From Gammaproteobacteria bacterium (GTDB lineage Bacteria; Pseudomonadota; Gammaproteobacteria; GCA-001735895): a stretch of DNA of 48,064 nt. The DNA lies in contig JAOTYD010000025.1 in the NCBI GenBank assembly GCA_029862005.1, forward strand, positions 1 through 48,064. Direction: 5' to 3'. Every line of letters starts with the position of its first letter. The first letter of the stretch is position 1. The notes beneath the pieces were generated by a model, which did no database searches, was not told the origin of the DNA, and saw only the letters and a list, made by a program, of their open reading frames with translations. Positions 26,058-34,847 of this stretch are shown here, piece by piece. Made by a program: the position numbers and the translations under genes.

Positions 26058-27413
26058 ATGTCACATGAGTTCGATTACGACCTGATTACACTTGGCGCCG
26101 GAAGCGGTGGCTTATCCATTGTTGAACGTGCCGCCAGCTACGGACAACGCTGTGCCGTCGTTGAAAGAGGCGATATCGGCGGTACCTGTGTCAACGTGGG
26201 TTGCGTACCAAAGAAAATCATGTGGTTCGCGGCGAACCTTTCACACATGATCGACGATGCCACGGGCTACGGTTACGACCTGACCAAAAACGGCTTTGAC
26301 TGGGCCAGGCTGATTGAAAAGCGGGAGCGATATATCAGCGGAATCAATCAGTGGTATCACGGGTACATGAAGGAACTCGGCATCGACGAAATCGAGGGCG
26401 AGGCCAGTTTTATCGATGCCAACACGGTCACTGTCAATGGCAGACATTATTCGGCACGACATATCGCCATTGCCACCGGCACTCGTCCCCGGGTTGCGGA
26501 CATACCCGGCGGTGAACATGTGATTACCTCGGATGGATTTTTCGAACTCGATCACCAACCAAACCGGGTCGCGATAGCGGGCTCAGGATATATCGCGGTA
26601 GAACTGGCCGGTGTCCTGAACTCGCTGGGAAGCCATGTGACCCTGTATTTGCGCAAACATCATGTACTGGGCGAGTTTGATAGCCTGATAAAAACAACCT
26701 TGCTGGAAGAGCTTGCCAAATCCGGTATCGAGCTTCGAACCAACTGCGAAATCACCCGCATAACACGTGCCGACTCCGGTCAGATGAGGGTCGATGACAA
26801 CCATGGTGTCGGGCTTGAAGATGTGGAGCAGGTCATCTATGCCATTGGCCGGGTACCTGAGCTTGAGACGTTAAAACTCGAGAATGCCGGTGTCGAGATA
26901 AACCAGAAGGGATTTATCTCGACCGATATGTACCAGTGCACCAATCAGCCCCATATTTTCGCGCTGGGTGACGTTACCGGGCGAGCGCCGTTGACGCCTG
27001 TTGCGGTTGCCGCGGGTAGACGCCTGGCGGATCGCCTGTACGATAACCAGGCCGAGCGCCATCTGGATTACGAGTTGATTCCCACGGTGGTTTTCAGTCA
27101 TCCGCCGATTGGCACGGTAGGCGTGACCGAGGAAGCAGCACGCGCGGAATACGGAGACCGGGTCAAAGTCTACCAGACCCGTTTCACGGCGATGTATAAC
27201 TCGATCAGTGGACACGACGTTCCTACCGCGATGAAACTGGTGTGCCTTGACGAGGAAGAAAAGATCATCGGTTGTCACATGATAGGGCCAGCGGTCGATG
27301 AAATGCTGCAGGGGTTTGCCGTGGCAATCCGCATGGGTGCCAGCAAGCGAGACTTTGACGACACCGTCGCAATTCACCCCACCAGTTCAGAGGAACTGGT
27401 GACAATGCGCTAG
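26058..27413 (+). CDS. gor: Glutathione-disulfide reductase
   Basis: FAD enzyme that reduces glutathione disulfide with NADPH. The 451-residue protein has the N-terminal GAGSGGL FAD motif, the redox disulfide in [13 protein letters not shown] (about 41-53), the NADPH-binding [14 protein letters not shown] and the C-terminal [12 protein letters not shown] with the catalytic His-Glu pair. In the NADPH 2'-phosphate loop E. coli has two arginines (R198, R204); here the aligned loop is [11 protein letters not shown], so the first Arg is kept and the second is Gly. A TGGAG ribosome-binding site precedes the ATG. Confidence 0.94.
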
Positions 27414-27436: not shown

Positions 27437-28951
27437 TCAGGATTTTCGAGCGATAATTTGAAACTGTCTGGCTGTCAGCTTGTAGGGGCTGCGCTCGGTA
27501 AATTCCAATTCGAGCTGTTTCAGTTTTTCATACACGATGGAGTCCTCCTTTAGTTCATTGGTACCCCAGTAGTTGTAAAGGCAACGAATCCCGTAGTGTT
27601 TTTCGAGACCTAATCCCATGCTGGAGAGCCACTCGATGACTTCATCGGGACGGTATTCATGGACATTGATATCAAATATCGAGTTGTACTGATCGGCCTG
27701 GTCCAGCAGTTCGTAGGCCTTGTCAAGGTCGTGTTCCAGAAAAGCCGCCTGGTAGGGTAACGAGTACTGGTTGGTGGTAATCAATGACATGAAACCGCCG
27801 GGTTTCAGCACCTGCCGCAGAACCTCCAGTAAAGGTTGCACCTCGTCAATAAACTGAATGACGTTATGACACAAGACGATATCGAACTCATTTTCGGGAA
27901 ACTTGTTACCAATGGTAAGGATATCCATTGCATGGGTATTCAATCGATCGGTAACGCCGGCCAAAGCAGCATTGGCGCGCGCATCGTCGAGCATCTGCCG
28001 GGAGATATCGACAATATCGATTTGATGATTCATGCGTGCCAGCGCGAGGCTGTCGAATCCGTTGCCACCGCCAGCGTCAAGAATACGCAAGGGTCTTGAA
28101 TCGACCGGGATGTGCTTTTTAAGGTTATGTTCGATCAGTTCATAACCAAAGCGATTCCACGGCATGCTTTGATCAGCCTTCCATCGCGACAGACCGGCCT
28201 CGAAGGAATCTTTACGGCTACATACGCGTAGCGCTTTGTTGAGGTCAACGTTGCCGGTATAAAGCGCCTTGCCAATAATTACGCCATCAATGCCATCGTT
28301 GTTAAAGCACTCGCGCACGTCCGTCATTGAGCCAATTCCACCGCCGACAATAATTCGCAAACCACTCATCGTCGCGAGGTCGATCGATGCCTCCAGATCA
28401 ACGCCGGTCATCGAACCATCCCGATGAATGCTGGTATGAATTGCGGTGGTTACGCCGAGCTGACGCATTTGAATCGCGAGCGTTGTTGCCTGTACGCTCC
28501 CGGGCGCACGCCAGCCGTGGATGTGGACTTCACCGCTGGCATCGGCGTCGATGCCAAGCACGATTGCATCACTGCCATAGGCCGCGACTGACTGGGCCAT
28601 CATTTGTGGATTTTCAACGGCGGAAGTGCCAATAATGACGCGCTTGATCCCCGACTTCATCGCCCAGTGAACATCGTCGATATTGCGAATTCCGCCGCCA
28701 AACTGGATATTGATGTCGAGGGCAGTGATTTGCTCGATTAACTCCCAGTTATGACTGGCCTCTTCGTCGAAGGCGGCATCAAGGTTAACGACCTGTAGCC
28801 AGCTGGCACCCTGGTCAATCCACTGTTGCGCACAGGCAACCGGGTCGGTATTGAAGACGACCGGATTCTCGGTATCGCCCTGGGTAAAGCGCACCACTTC
28901 ACCATTACGTATATGTATGGCTGGGAAAATAGTAAACCGCTTTAAATTCAT
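27437..28951 (-). CDS. HisA-like TIM barrel fused to a CmoM-like SAM methyltransferase
   Basis: A 504-residue fusion. Residues 1-243 are a HisA-type barrel: FPAIHIRNGEVVRF, QFGGGIRNIDD, VLGIDADASGE, HRDGSMTGVD and the phosphate loops VGGGIGSM and VIIGKALYTG. In ProFAR isomerase the first catalytic Asp lies in P-A-[IL]-D; here it is His13, while the second Asp is kept (Asp135). The usual V-D-L also reads VVNLDAA. Residues about 247-504 are a class I methyltransferase with LDAGGGNGFD as SAM motif I, most like CmoM (tRNA cmo5U methyl-esterase), including the C-terminal YEKLKQLELEF and QIIARKS. It lies 28 nt downstream of dapB with no other his gene. Whether the barrel is still an isomerase is doubtful. 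Confidence 0.85.
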   Translation of the reverse strand: MNLKRFTIFPAIHIRNGEVVRFTQGDTENPVVFNTDPVACAQQWIDQGASWLQVVNLDAAFDEEASHNWELIEQITALDINIQFGGGIRNIDDVHWAMKSGIKRVIIGTSAVENPQMMAQSVAAYGSDAIVLGIDADASGEVHIHGWRAPGSVQATTLAIQMRQLGVTTAIHTSIHRDGSMTGVDLEASIDLATMSGLRIIVGGGIGSMTDVRECFNNDGIDGVIIGKALYTGNVDLNKALRVCSRKDSFEAGLSRWKADQSMPWNRFGYELIEHNLKKHIPVDSRPLRILDAGGGNGFDSLALARMNHQIDIVDISRQMLDDARANAALAGVTDRLNTHAMDILTIGNKFPENEFDIVLCHNVIQFIDEVQPLLEVLRQVLKPGGFMSLITTNQYSLPYQAAFLEHDLDKAYELLDQADQYNSIFDINVHEYRPDEVIEWLSSMGLGLEKHYGIRCLYNYWGTNELKEDSIVYEKLKQLELEFTERSPYKLTARQFQIIARKS

Positions 28952-28979: not shown

Positions 28980-29801
<822 letters not shown>

Positions 29802-30920
29802 TCAAGATTTCATGTCTTCGAAGAACTTTTTCATATTATCGATCCAGGAATTTTCGTTCGGATTGTGCTTTTTCCCCGCTTTTCCCATGGATTCTGCAAA
29901 TTGTTGCAGCAGTTCTTTTTGCTCGGCGTTCAATTTTACAGGTGTTTCGACAACAATGCGGCAGATTAAATCACCAACCGGACCACCTCGAACCGGCTTA
30001 ACTCCCTTTCCGCGCATCCGAAACAACTTGTGGGTCTGCGTACCGGCCGGTATTTTCAGGTTCAATCTGCCTGCAAGACTGGGAACCTCGAGCTCACCGC
30101 CCAGTGCAGCCGTCACGAAACTGATCGGTACCTCGCAGTAAAGGTCGGCGTTATCACGTTCAAAAATCGGATGCGGTTTGACATGTATCTGGACAAACAG
30201 GTCGCCCGTTGGTGCCCCTGCTTCGCCCGCTTCGCCTTCACCTGATAATCGTATACGGTCACCATTATCAACCCCGGCAGGTACTTCTACCGAGAGTGAT
30301 TTATGTTCTTTAACCCGCCCGGCACCGTGGCAGGTATTGCAGGGATCACTAATTGTCGTGCCCTTACCCCGGCAGTTGGGACAGGTTTGCTGTACCGAAA
30401 AAAATCCCTGTTGCATTCGTACCTGGCCGTGCCCACCACAGGTGTTGCAGGTTTCCGGGGAGGTGCCGGGTTTTGCACCACTGCCTGAACAGGTCGTGCA
30501 GTGTTTCAATGTGGGCACGCGGATTTTTACCGTCGTGCCACTGACGGCATCCTCCAGGCTCAGTTCGAGGTTATATTGCAGGTCGGCGCCCTTGCGTACC
30601 CGCGAACGGCCTCCGCCGCCAAAAATATCGCCGAATATATCGCTGAACGCGTCACCGAAGCCGCCTCCACTGAAGCCGCCCCCGCCTACTGATTGATCGA
30701 CACCGGCGTGTCCGAACTGGTCATAGGCCGCGCGCTTGTTGGGATTTGACAGTACATCGAAAGCTTCCTTGGCTTCCTTGAAATTCTGTTCGGCTGTCTC
30801 ATCATCGGGATTACGATCGGGATGATATTTCATCGCGAGACGACGAAAAGCCTTTTTTATCTCGGCATCCGAGGCGTTTTTTGAAACTTCTAGAACTTCG
30901 TAATAATCGCGTTGTGACAT
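29802..30920 (-). CDS. dnaJ: Chaperone protein DnaJ
   Basis: Hsp40 co-chaperone that stimulates DnaK ATPase. The 372-residue protein has a J domain with the HPD motif (about 5-65), a Gly/Phe-rich linker (about 75-110), four zinc CxxCxGxG repeats ([32 protein letters not shown]) and the C-terminal substrate-binding domain. It lies downstream of dnaK beyond a strong hairpin (30943-30972), which may lower its expression relative to dnaK. Confidence 0.98.
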
Positions 30921-30942
30921 TGACTCGTTTCTACAAATAACA

Positions 30943-30972
30943 AAACCTGGCGCGATAAATCACGCCAGGTTT
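30943..30972 (-). terminator. Strong hairpin between dnaK and dnaJ
   Basis: A perfect 10-bp stem (AAACCTGGCG / CGCCAGGTTT) with a 10-nt loop lies in the 72-nt dnaK-dnaJ gap. On the minus strand it is followed by TTTTGTTATTT, so it could act as a partial terminator or as a 3'-end stabiliser of dnaK mRNA, giving less DnaJ than DnaK. Confidence 0.6.
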
Positions 30973-30992
30973 ATAACGATCAGAAAAAACCG

Positions 30993-32927
30993 TTACTTTT
31001 TGTCGTCTTCTTTTACTTCTTCGAATTCGGCATCGACAACATCATCGCTCGCATCTGCCTGTGCCGATGCATTCGCATCGACTGGATCCGGACCGCCTTC
31101 CGCGGCGCCAGCGGCAGAATAGGCCTTTTCAGCCAACTTGCTGGATGCCTCGGCGAGTGCCTGCGTTTTGGCATCGATATCGTCCTTATCCGAACCTTCC
31201 AGGGCCTTTTTCAGATCTTCGATTGCAGATTCGATCTTACTCTTGTCTTCGTCCTCGACCTGGTCACCCAGGTCCTTGAGCGTTTTCTCTGCCGCGTGGA
31301 TCATCGCGTCAGCCTGGTTGCGTGTTTCGACGGTTTCTCGATGCTTGCGATCTTCGTCAGCATGCGCCTCGGCATCCTTGATCATCGCATCGACTTCATC
31401 ATCGGAAAGGCCGCTGGAGGCCTTGATGACGATCTTTTGTTCCTTACCGGTTGCCTTGTCTTTGGCTGAGACATTGAGGATACCGTTGGCATCGATATCG
31501 AAGGTTACCTCGATCTGTGGTACACCACGTTGCGCCGGCGGAATGTCCGACAGGTCGAAGCGGCCCAGAGACTTATTCGCCGTGGCCACCTCGCGCTCAC
31601 CCTGAAGCACGTGCACCGTTACCGCGGTCTGGTTATCTTCCGCGGTTGAAAAAGTCTGTGCCGCCTTGGTCGGAATGGTTGTATTTTTCTCGATCAACTT
31701 GGTCATGACACCACCGAGGGTCTCGATACCCAGTGATAGCGGAGTGACGTCAAGCAGTAATACATTCTTGACATCGCCACCCAGCACGCCACCCTGGATT
31801 GCAGCACCACAGGCTACGGCCTCGTCCGGATTTACATCGCGACGCGGATCGCGACCAAAGAAGTTTGTAACCACTTCCTGGACCTTGGGCATACGGGTTT
31901 GACCACCCACCAGGATAATATCGTTGATGTCTGATACCGATACACCCGCGTCATCCAGCGCCAGCTTGAGTGGATCGATGGTGCGTGCAATCAGGTCGTC
32001 GACCAGTGATTCGAGCTTGGCTCGAGTGATTTTTAAATTGAGGTGTTTCGGTCCTGACGCATCTGCAGTGATATAAGGCAGGTTTACATCGGTTTGCTGG
32101 CTCGATGACAACTCGATTTTTGCCTTTTCGGCAGCCTCCTTGAGGCGCTGCATTGCGAGCGGATCACCACGCAGGTCCATACCCTGTTCCTTCTTGAAAG
32201 TGTCGGCGAGATGGTCGATCAGGCGCATGTCGAAATCCTCACCACCGAGGAAGGTATCGCCATTGGTCGACAGCACTTCGAACTGGTGTTCACCATCGAT
32301 CTCGGCGACTTCGATGATTGAAATATCGAAGGTACCGCCACCCAGGTCATACACCGCGATCTTTTTATCGCCAGTAGCTTTGTCCATGCCGTAAGCGAGC
32401 GCCGCGGCAGTGGGTTCATTGATAATTCGCTTGACTTCGAGGCCTGCAATTTTACCTGCGTCCTTGGTTGCCTGGCGTTGCGAATCGTTGAAATAGGCCG
32501 GAACCGTGATAACGGCTTCGGTGACTTCTTCACCGAGATACTCTTCCGCGGTCTTTTTCATTTTCTGCAGCACGCGCGCCGAGATTTCAGGCGGCGCCAT
32601 TTTCTTACCCTTGGCCTCGACCCAGGCGTCGCCATTGTCTGCCTTTAGAATGGTATAGGGCACCAGGTCAATATCCTTTTGCACCTCTTTCTCGTCGAAA
32701 CGGCGCCCGATCAGGCGTTTTACCGCGTACAGCGTGTTAGCCGGGTTTGTTACTGCCTGGCGCTTTGCCGGCTGCCCCACCAGCACCTCGTCTTCAGCGC
32801 CAAAGGCCACGATTGAGGGAGTGGTACGATCGCCTTCGGCATTTTCAATAACCTTGGGCTTGCCGCCCTCCATTACCGCCACGCAAGAGTTCGTGGTACC
32901 GAGGTCTATGCCTATAATTCTGCCCAT
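30993..32927 (-). CDS. dnaK: Chaperone protein DnaK (Hsp70)
   Basis: ATP-dependent chaperone of 644 residues. The N-terminal nucleotide-binding domain starts with [13 protein letters not shown]; the interdomain linker ([17 protein letters not shown]), the substrate-binding domain and the helical lid follow. The C-terminus ends in a disordered acidic tail ([17 protein letters not shown]), as in E. coli. A sigma-32-type promoter is visible upstream (32969-32996). Confidence 0.99.
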
Positions 32928-32968
32928 TTAAATACTCCGAAAAATTTGTCTAGTGAAACTTACACTCG

Positions 32969-32996
32969 ATGTAGGGTTATTTCTGACGCTTTCAAG
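32969..32996 (-). promoter_or_regulatory. Sigma-32-type heat-shock promoter of dnaK
   Basis: On the minus strand CTTGAAA is followed, after 14 nt from CTTGAA, by CCCTACAT. This is close to the sigma-32 consensus (CTTGAA, 13-15 nt spacer, CCCCATNT) and matches the geometry of E. coli dnaK promoter 1. The -10 lies about 42 nt upstream of the dnaK start. Confidence 0.7.
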
Positions 32997-33020
32997 TATA
33001 TTTCGCGATTTTTTCTTAAT

Positions 33021-33605
33021 TTACTTGGCAACCACGACCATGGCTGGTCGAACCAGCCGTTCGTTTAACAGGAAGCCTTTCTGCATGACTTCGACAACCG
33101 TATTCGATTTGACACCCTTGGCATCAACCATGCTGATAGCCTGGTGTCTCTCGGGATCAAAAATCTCCCCCATCGGATCAATGTGCTCGAGCCCGTTTTT
33201 TTCGAGTACCTGGACCAGCATGTTCATGGTCAGGGCGGTTCCCTCGCGAATGCTCTCCAGGGTTGCATTGTCGGCCACGGCAGCCGTCTGACCCATCTCC
33301 ATACTGTCAATCACGGGCAACAGGTTTTCGACGAAATTTTTCAAGGCATACTTGTGGGCATTCTCGACATCGCGTTCGGCGCGCTTGCGGTTATTGTCGA
33401 TCTCAGCACGCAATCGCATCATCTGATCCCAGTAATCCTTAATCGTTTCCTGTGCTTTTGCCAGCTGTGTCTCGACAGGCTCATCGGCCTCGATTTCATC
33501 TTCAGCCGCTTCAGGAACAACATCTTCGAGATGAGCCTGTTCCTCGGCTTCGGTGGCGATAGGATGTTCCTCGTCAGGATGGGCTTCGGATTGTTGTGAC
33601 GACAT
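33021..33605 (-). CDS. grpE: Nucleotide exchange factor GrpE
   Basis: Co-chaperone that releases ADP from DnaK. The 194-residue protein has an acidic N-terminus (about 1-50), a long helix that forms the dimer (about 50-90) and the C-terminal beta wing with NGLEHIDPMGEIFDPERHQAI and VVEVMQKGFLLNERLVRPAMVVV. It lies between hrcA and dnaK. I found no clear sigma-32 element in the 88-nt gap to hrcA. Confidence 0.97.
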   Translation of the reverse strand: MSSQQSEAHPDEEHPIATEAEEQAHLEDVVPEAAEDEIEADEPVETQLAKAQETIKDYWDQMMRLRAEIDNNRKRAERDVENAHKYALKNFVENLLPVIDSMEMGQTAAVADNATLESIREGTALTMNMLVQVLEKNGLEHIDPMGEIFDPERHQAISMVDAKGVKSNTVVEVMQKGFLLNERLVRPAMVVVAK

Positions 33606-33693
33606 TGACTGCTCCGGTTTAACTGGTTCGCTGGTTAGGGTGAATTTGACCGGCTGAAATTCAGCGGTAATTAAATGGCGTTTAATTTAAGGA

Positions 33694-34734
33694 TTATTTC
33701 CGAGTATTCAAGGCCGAAGTTAATAATCTTGCCGTGACATCGACAATGGGTATTACCTGCTCGTAGGCAATACGAGTTGGACCGATGACGCCAAGCACGC
33801 CGACAACTTCACCTTTGATTTCGTAGGGAGCGCCAACCACGCTGCAATCGCTTAAGACCGAGTATCCCGATTCGCTGCCGATAAAGATTTCAACACCATC
33901 TGCCGAGGTGCAGCCATCGAGCAGTTTCAGTAAATCCGTTTTCTCATTAAACACTTCAAATAGATCTCGTAACTTATTGATATCAGAGAGTTCCGCGTAT
34001 TGAAGCAGGTTAGATTCACCGCTTGTCAGCAGATCATCATGCGCATTCAGACTACAGATTTCCTGCATCGCGTCGAGCACCGGTTCGAGGATGGAATCGA
34101 CGCTGGTTCTCAGTTCGGAGAGGTCTTCCAGCAATTTCTCACGGGCGCTTTCAAAACTACGCCCTATCAGGTAGTGACTCAGGGTCTGTGCTGCCTGTTG
34201 CAGTTCGAGGTCGCTGTAATCCCGATCCACATGAATCACCTTGTTGTGCACATTGTCCTTGTTGATGACAAGGATCACCAGAACTCGACGTTCGCTCAAT
34301 GTCATGAACTCGATATGCCGCACTTCAGCCGGCGCGGTATGTGTCAGGCTGACAATCCCGGCCAGGTGGGTAATCCGCGACAGGATATCAGTTGCGCTGT
34401 GTATCAGGTCACTCGATGTTTTATTGGTGCTAAAGGTTTCCGAAATAACCTGCTGCGAAGTGCTGGCGAGATCGCCAACTTCGAGCAGACTGTCGATAAA
34501 AAACCGGTAGCCGGCATCAGTAGGAATTCGACCGGCCGAGGTGTGAGGGGAATTCACCAGGCCCATATCCTCGAGTTTTGCCATGATATTGCGAATCGTG
34601 GCAGAACTGACGTCGAGTCCCGACAGTTCCGCCAGGTTCTTTGAGCCAACAGGTTGTGCATCACGCGTATACGAGTTGATTAATTCCCGCAATAAAACCT
34701 GGGCGCGTTCATCAAGTTCGTATTTTTCGATCAT
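33694..34734 (-). CDS. hrcA: Heat-inducible transcription repressor HrcA
   Basis: Repressor of heat-shock operons through the CIRCE operator. The protein is 346 residues from the ATG at 34734 (the frame is open to 34794, but homology begins at MIEKYELDERAQVLL). The winged-helix DNA-binding domain covers about 1-75 (SGLDVSSATIRNIMAKLEDMG), followed by HTSAGRIPTDAGYRFF and the GAF-like dimerisation domain. The C-terminus has GVIGPTRIAYEQVIPIVD. It heads the hrcA-grpE-dnaK-dnaJ set. I found no CIRCE (TTAGCACTC-N9-GAGTGCTAA) upstream of hrcA, grpE or dnaK. Confidence 0.96.
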   Translation of the reverse strand: MIEKYELDERAQVLLRELINSYTRDAQPVGSKNLAELSGLDVSSATIRNIMAKLEDMGLVNSPHTSAGRIPTDAGYRFFIDSLLEVGDLASTSQQVISETFSTNKTSSDLIHSATDILSRITHLAGIVSLTHTAPAEVRHIEFMTLSERRVLVILVINKDNVHNKVIHVDRDYSDLELQQAAQTLSHYLIGRSFESAREKLLEDLSELRTSVDSILEPVLDAMQEICSLNAHDDLLTSGESNLLQYAELSDINKLRDLFEVFNEKTDLLKLLDGCTSADGVEIFIGSESGYSVLSDCSVVGAPYEIKGEVVGVLGVIGPTRIAYEQVIPIVDVTARLLTSALNTRK

Positions 34735-34847
34735 CGGGTCTGATATATTGTTGCCAGGCGCTAGTTTAGCTGCAAATTTAATACAGTGAAACACAAGCTA
34801 TATACTAATGCCCGTTAAATCAAGGAACCTGGACAGTCGTTTAAAAA

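Follow-up and report, generated by a model that had tools for sequence, protein, structure and literature searches.

HisA, PriA and TrpF are the classic case of one barrel that changed its substrate by duplication. For HisA of S. enterica, a table in PMC7591586 records no HisA activity with the listed changes at D129 or D176, and the acid-base pair of TrpF, as given in the part of PMC9088769 used here, employs a Cys, so the residue on strand beta-1 is replaceable within the superfamily. AdeK, a homologue of HisA and PriA, has been recruited to nucleoside antibiotics beside the housekeeping enzyme (PMC13055916, in part). In AdeK and PriA, Asp11 and Asp175 are catalytic, and the portion of that paper used here mentions neither a fusion nor a His at beta-1. 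Papers on his gene and archaeal fusions deal with HisA or HisF joined to HisIE (PMC1963479, PMC11237513), and the parts consulted mention no HisA-methyltransferase protein; a search of open-licence papers by title and start of the abstract found none on such a fusion. Among methyltransferases with a bearing on this study, CmoM holds the carboxymethoxy group of cmo5U with R26, W124 and Y247 (excerpt of PMC10516636).

We studied a gene in a gammaproteobacterial window of 48,064 nucleotides (i.e., the whole stretch of DNA analysed, contig JAOTYD010000025.1) that joins proteins of these two kinds. The gene (27437..28951, minus strand, ATG at 28951) encodes 504 amino acids: a HisA-type (beta/alpha)8 barrel at residues 1-243 (28223..28951, minus strand), identified by PF00977 at residues 8-235 (E 7e-65) and by the match of its model to PriA and HisA structures (see below), and a class I SAM methyltransferase domain at residues 247-504 (27440..28213, minus strand) with Pfam Methyltransf_25 and Methyltransf_11 at 290-388. 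The SAM-binding motif LDAGGGNG, residues 291-298 (28058..28081, minus strand), did not vary among the 14 rows of the orthologue alignment, one of which is our own protein. The ORF list and this alignment agree with a preliminary description of the window in that both halves lie in one continuous frame. The frame is real and not an assembly artefact: among its 15 carriers it was full length in 11 genomes, cut only by contig ends in three (G010, G020 and G024) and split over two contig ends in one (G005), from which only a 57-residue piece (L022) was obtained, outside the alignment.

The gene was also correctly described as adjoining dapB (28980..29777, minus strand; TIGR00036), which ends 28 bp upstream of it. 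Its other neighbour is the convergent gor, encoding glutathione reductase (26058..27413, plus strand; NF004776). The fusion is the last gene of a same-strand string, hrcA-grpE-dnaK-dnaJ-dapB-fusion, with its 3' end lying against gor. The hrcA-grpE-dnaK-dnaJ genes, at window positions 29802-34794, immediately precede dapB and the fusion. Despite their presence, no CIRCE operator was found in the window with up to three mismatches allowed, and scans for promoters and terminators gave site numbers similar to those in shuffled sequences.

The barrel shares with HisA (TIGR00007, PF00977) its fold, the two phosphate sites, the stacking Trp and the Asp residues of beta-5 and loop 6; it is unlike HisA in having a His at beta-1, a Gln (13/14) and an Asn at beta-2, a score below the family cut-off, a fused domain, a locus outside the his genes and a separate hisA in the same genome. 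Residue equivalences were established by alignment and residue spacing, with catalytic and ligand residues as named in parts of PMC9088769, PMC7591586 and PMC13055916, and beta-1 residues were read in the fetched loci. All codons given next are on the minus strand. The beta-1 catalytic Asp of HisA is replaced by His13 (28913..28915), a substitution that was noticed at first in this protein and proved to be conserved across the fusion homologs, in 15/15 carriers. The usual V-D-L indeed reads VVNLD, with Asn56 (28784..28786) at the place of the canonical Asp in 14/14 aligned fusions; the 57-residue piece also has His13 and Asn56. The position of H47/H50 was Gln53 in 13 of the 14 fusions and His in one.

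The retention of Asp135 and of the phosphate-binding residues, also claimed at the outset, was borne out. Asp135 (28547..28549), the beta-5 Asp corresponding to D129 of S. enterica HisA and D130 of PriA, was invariant, as were GGGIR in the 14-row alignment and Asp178 of the RDG motif (28418..28420), the equivalent of catalytic D176/D175, matched by alignment and by the T170-to-D175 spacing of PriA. That spacing ruled out the Asp of T-D-I, which would be Ser174 here, as the D176 equivalent. Arg89 (28685..28687) and Thr109 (28625..28627) correspond to the distal-phosphate grippers R83/R85 and S103/T105, and Trp147 (28511..28513) to the stacking Trp145 (roles from PMC9088769, in part); these three residues, D135, D178 and T173, which is the kept equivalent of T170, were identical in the fusions and 20 canonical HisAs. 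Retention of the D129 and D176 equivalents is meaningful because their changes abolish the activity of the S. enterica enzyme. In an AlphaFold model made with the 14-row alignment (mean pLDDT 82.8 and pTM 0.80 in the best of five models, 63.6-72.3 in the others), the barrel matched PriA and HisA structures at Z 27-31 (3zs4, for instance, at Z 30.4 and 2.1 A over 235 residues), some of which contain ProFAR or PRFAR; PriA structures were the closest solved ones.

A search of the own genome with the fusion protein found, on another contig, a canonical hisA (C5:70777-71487) beside hisF (C5:70015-70725); the fusion gene is neither the sole hisA of the genome nor part of a his locus. The same held for the other carriers: among the matches listed, a separate canonical hisA occurred in 15/15, in 13 of them next to a HisF-type match, which was not seen for G009 and G010. 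All 20 canonical HisAs compared (from the 15 carriers, four other congeners and one genome of a sister genus) had Asp both at beta-1 and in V-D-L, and 40/40 canonical HisA rows of a further alignment had it at beta-1. Two genomes, G161 and G285, each had two separate hisA-hisF type sets, and all four HisAs carried the catalytic Asp.

A tree of 36 barrels placed all fusions together in a single clade (100/100), which lay on the HisA side but separate from the HisA of the genus and had 1.61 changes per column along its stem; the deep order of this tree was unresolved and its long branches were flagged. Across 91 pairs of genomes, the barrel averaged 0.788 in amino-acid identity, canonical HisA 0.808 and the methyltransferase 0.693, with mean dN of 0.142, 0.129 and 0.228, respectively; in 19 of these pairs it was the barrel, not HisA, that was the more conserved. 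The NG86 dN/dS ratio in four close pairs was 0.04-0.08 for the barrel and 0.08-0.31 for the methyltransferase, many distant pairs being saturated at synonymous sites. A long stem followed by strong constraint argues for a new function, and the barrel is probably, judging from sequence comparison, a neofunctionalised HisA paralogue under selection that evolves almost as slowly as HisA itself. An actinobacterial origin of the whole fusion was rejected, since the barrel was 30-33% identical to those of Nonomuraea, Tsukamurella and Arthrobacter versus 39.6% to that of Listeria, in comparison with a plasmid collection that contains few actinobacterial chromosomes, so that a fusion or a stand-alone His13 barrel may yet occur in that group; at most the methyltransferase half may have such an origin.

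The search for the fusion covered 57 genomes: 31 of the same genus (own genome included), 5 of the same family and 21 of the same class. Among the matches listed, the same two-domain protein was present in 15 of the 31 congeneric genomes and in 0/26 of the less related ones. Among the matches listed for 369 genomes of the class, full-length ones came from just two genomes, both congeneric. In 84,980 species genomes, scanned with exact short peptides that detect close relatives only, there were 14 fusion loci, all in MAGs that are gammaproteobacterial or proteobacterial by title, and with at least 67% identity. No relative was found in viral contigs scanned with the methyltransferase alignment, and the phage matches listed, 10 of 16 records, covered the barrel part only.

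The order dapB then fusion was seen in 15/15 carriers (G005 judged from its first 57 residues). Among the 16 congeners without a fusion match, dapB was followed by an opposite-strand frame reading as gor, judged by eye against the gor of the window, in 10; the locus was uninformative in five, where it met a contig end (G006, G017) or dapB was not found (G007, G012, G027). Behind dapB of G013 (L143), which had no fusion match, lay a relic of 29 codons with 62% identity to fusion residues 473-501 (E 4e-8), and the gene has therefore been lost at least once. On a dapB tree of 28 genomes, built from one short gene and with several weak forks, the presence of the fusion required five changes, and carriers fell on both sides of the midpoint root. 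Given the patchy presence, the changes on the dapB tree and the relic, the fusion gene is accessory.

The explanation that we prefer, tentatively and at somewhat less than an even chance, is that of a neofunctionalised HisA paralogue joined to a SAM methyltransferase, in which the barrel would isomerise a bis-phosphate via His13 and Asp178 and the methyltransferase would methylate the same molecule. With its two phosphate sites, stacking Trp and Asp178 all preserved, the barrel would, we infer, still bind a bis-phosphorylated phosphoribosyl compound of the ProFAR or PRFAR class. Its reaction would be an Amadori-type isomerisation or a related enolisation in which His13, the putative acid-base residue, replaces Asp as the beta-1 partner of Asp178, by analogy with the Cys that works with an Asp in TrpF; the fused methyltransferase, if coupled to the barrel as we suppose, would then act on the same small molecule. 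The architecture, the invariance of His13, the kept ligand residues, the constraint, the separate hisA and the distribution in the lineage with one scar of loss argue for this explanation, and AdeK may serve as an analogous precedent for the recruitment of a HisA/PriA homologue to nucleoside metabolism (PMC13055916, in part). Against it, the gene is dispensable (16 of the 31 congeners lack the fusion among the matches listed, one of them with a relic), evolution is faster in the methyltransferase half than in the barrel, and a D7N HisA was crystallised, by the titles of the structure entries, with bound ProFAR, so that loss of the beta-1 Asp may mean binding without catalysis. A more explicit form of the proposal is possible but doubtful: the His/Asp-pair barrel would transform a ProFAR-like bis-phosphate and the methyltransferase would O- or N-methylate it, yielding an undescribed phosphoribosyl or imidazole/nucleoside metabolite.

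The main rival, which we regard as rather unlikely, starts from that same D7N crystal: a catalytically dead barrel would sense ProFAR, PRFAR or a similar intermediate of histidine or purine synthesis and thereby switch or position the methyltransferase. Loss of the beta-1 Asp with all ligand residues kept is what is expected of a binding-only barrel, and there are HisA-like barrels with Gln or Glu at beta-1 that are fused to another domain (L003 and L119, see below). Such a sensor, however, is at odds with the invariance of Asp178, Asp135 and Thr173, given that loss of the first two abolishes S. enterica HisA activity (PMC7591586, in part), and with a His13 that is constant in all carriers instead of drifting.

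It is improbable that the protein is a redundant or moonlighting ProFAR isomerase that converts ProFAR to PRFAR with the His as base. The kept phosphate grips, Trp and Asp178 would suit this activity, as would the predicted fold, nearest to ligand-bound PriA and HisA structures, but the same genome has its canonical hisA next to hisF, and the barrel scored 211.5 bits with TIGR00007, the HisA equivalog, below the cut-off of 228.95. Moreover, the beta-2 His and Asp are changed as well (Q53 in 13/14, N56 in 14/14), the stem is long, and the gene is absent from half of the genus among the matches listed. The suggestion in the preliminary description that the barrel works outside histidine synthesis is thus well supported by the fusions, the fixed His13 and the separate hisA, but the link to tRNA cmo5U that accompanied it is not.

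The fused methyltransferase is like CmoM in its class I fold, C-terminal cap, SAM motif and, mostly, R209 and R246. CmoM structures were the closest solved ones by sequence, and CmoM 8joz was the top fold match of a model of the methyltransferase alone (Z 21.8, 3.2 A over 230 residues; model pLDDT 68.3). The name CmoM-like is appropriate for the fold, but not for the position in the tree or for the residues that hold cmo5U. CmoM-type proteins were about 23-34% identical to the fused domain, and the nearest stand-alone relatives found were actinobacterial, with 36-37% identity along the entire domain, its N-terminal helix included. A tree of 36 sequences split the fusions and three actinobacterial proteins from 19 CmoM-like proteins (100/100). 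Each of R26, W124 and Y247 was invariant in 19/19 of the CmoM-like proteins, whereas the fusions had Gly, Ser, Ala or Asn at the R26 position (Arg in 0/13 readable rows), Phe or Tyr at that of W124 (Trp in 0/14 rows) and Gln or Leu at that of Y247, where Tyr was left in one of 12 readable rows. K22 of CmoM was also missing, its position being Trp in 13/13 fusions, and that of N16 was Asp or Glu in 13/13, although the N-terminal helix with the N16, K22 and R26 positions was aligned less surely. R209 was kept in 12/14 fusions and R246 in 12/12 readable rows, and the equivalent of D73, the acidic residue after beta-2, was Asp in 14/14.

The three actinobacterial methyltransferases (Streptomyces, Streptosporangium; L105-L107) were stand-alone proteins, with no annotated HisA in the regions read, and unlike the fusions they keep R26 and D213 of CmoM; their neighbourhoods had no common annotated gene hinting at a substrate. 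When 398 genomes of the phylum were screened, no listed match outside the own genome exceeded 131 bits. This phylum-wide lack of close methyltransferase matches would fit acquisition from elsewhere, without being proof of it.

A CmoM replacement, i.e., a tRNA cmo5U34 methyltransferase with an accessory barrel, is very improbable. The similarity in structure and the kept R209 and R246 speak for it, together with the gene content of the genus, where cmoB was over the cut-off in 28 of the 31 genomes and nothing but the fused domain scored more than 55 bits with the CmoM model. In a sister genus, two genomes had better CmoM matches of 215-224 bits, still below the cut-off. The fused domain, however, scored 112 bits with the CmoM model NF008264 against a cut-off of 366, a strict one that was passed by none of the 57 genomes, and it falls in a separate clade with the residue losses given above. 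Furthermore, 15 of the 28 cmoB-positive congeners lack the fusion, and the idea of a stand-in for a missing CmoM was rejected on this count. Methylation of tRNA cmo5U by the fusion is unlikely because it groups with the actinobacterial methyltransferases and has lost most of the residues that hold cmo5U, a judgement made on sequence data; CmoM function was rejected on residues and tree despite the CmoM-nearest fold and the mostly kept R209 and R246.

A TrpF-like barrel, i.e., a PRA isomerase, seems more improbable still. Some point mutants of HisA gain TrpF activity (PMC7591586, in part), but it was the loss of D129 or D176 that gave this activity in the same source, and the equivalents of both are kept here; PriA His50, needed for PRA (PMC13055916, in part), corresponds to Gln53 in 13/14 fusions, and trpF is already present in 30 of the 31 genomes of the genus, own genome included, by which a PriA-type replacement of trpF was rejected. 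That the gene is a decaying duplicate without function, as its lack in 16/31 congeners (among the matches listed) and the relic in G013 might suggest, has a negligible probability and was rejected by the constraint on both halves, with purifying selection in the four close pairs, a barrel nearly as conserved as HisA over the 91 pairs and open frames in 14/14 aligned copies.

The own genome contained a third HisA-like barrel, joined to a nucleoside deoxyribosyltransferase-like domain (L003:1003-2223, minus strand; C10:19979-20698 in the own genome). It had Gln at beta-1, and its beta-5 Asp and RDG motif were lost by alignment. L003-like fusions occurred in about 24 of the 31 congeneric genomes among the matches listed, by match span and frame length, with L003 as the one that was read. 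Two further barrels with Glu at beta-1 were found in other gammaproteobacterial families, one in the same deoxyribosyltransferase fusion (L119:919-2220, minus strand; G248) and one stand-alone (L120:1474-2217, minus strand; G389), and both formed one clade with L003. L003 and L119 have in common with the methyltransferase fusion a HisA-side barrel, an altered beta-1 residue and a second enzyme domain, and differ from it by the Gln or Glu at beta-1 and by their separate clade. A literature search on deoxyribosyltransferase-HisA proteins found, by title and start of the abstract, no paper on the methyltransferase fusion.

If the more explicit form of our proposal, with its undescribed methylated metabolite, is true, these bacteria would have a small accessory route that branches off the synthesis of histidine or purines. 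Earlier papers, in the parts used here, concern engineered mutants or stand-alone homologues; here the beta-1 Asp to His change is natural, stands in a fused protein and is under constraint close to that on HisA. The congeneric genomes that lack the fusion, one with a relic, are natural controls. The fusion offers a clean case of neofunctionalisation that is open to testing, and a new methylated phosphoribosyl metabolite could come of its study.
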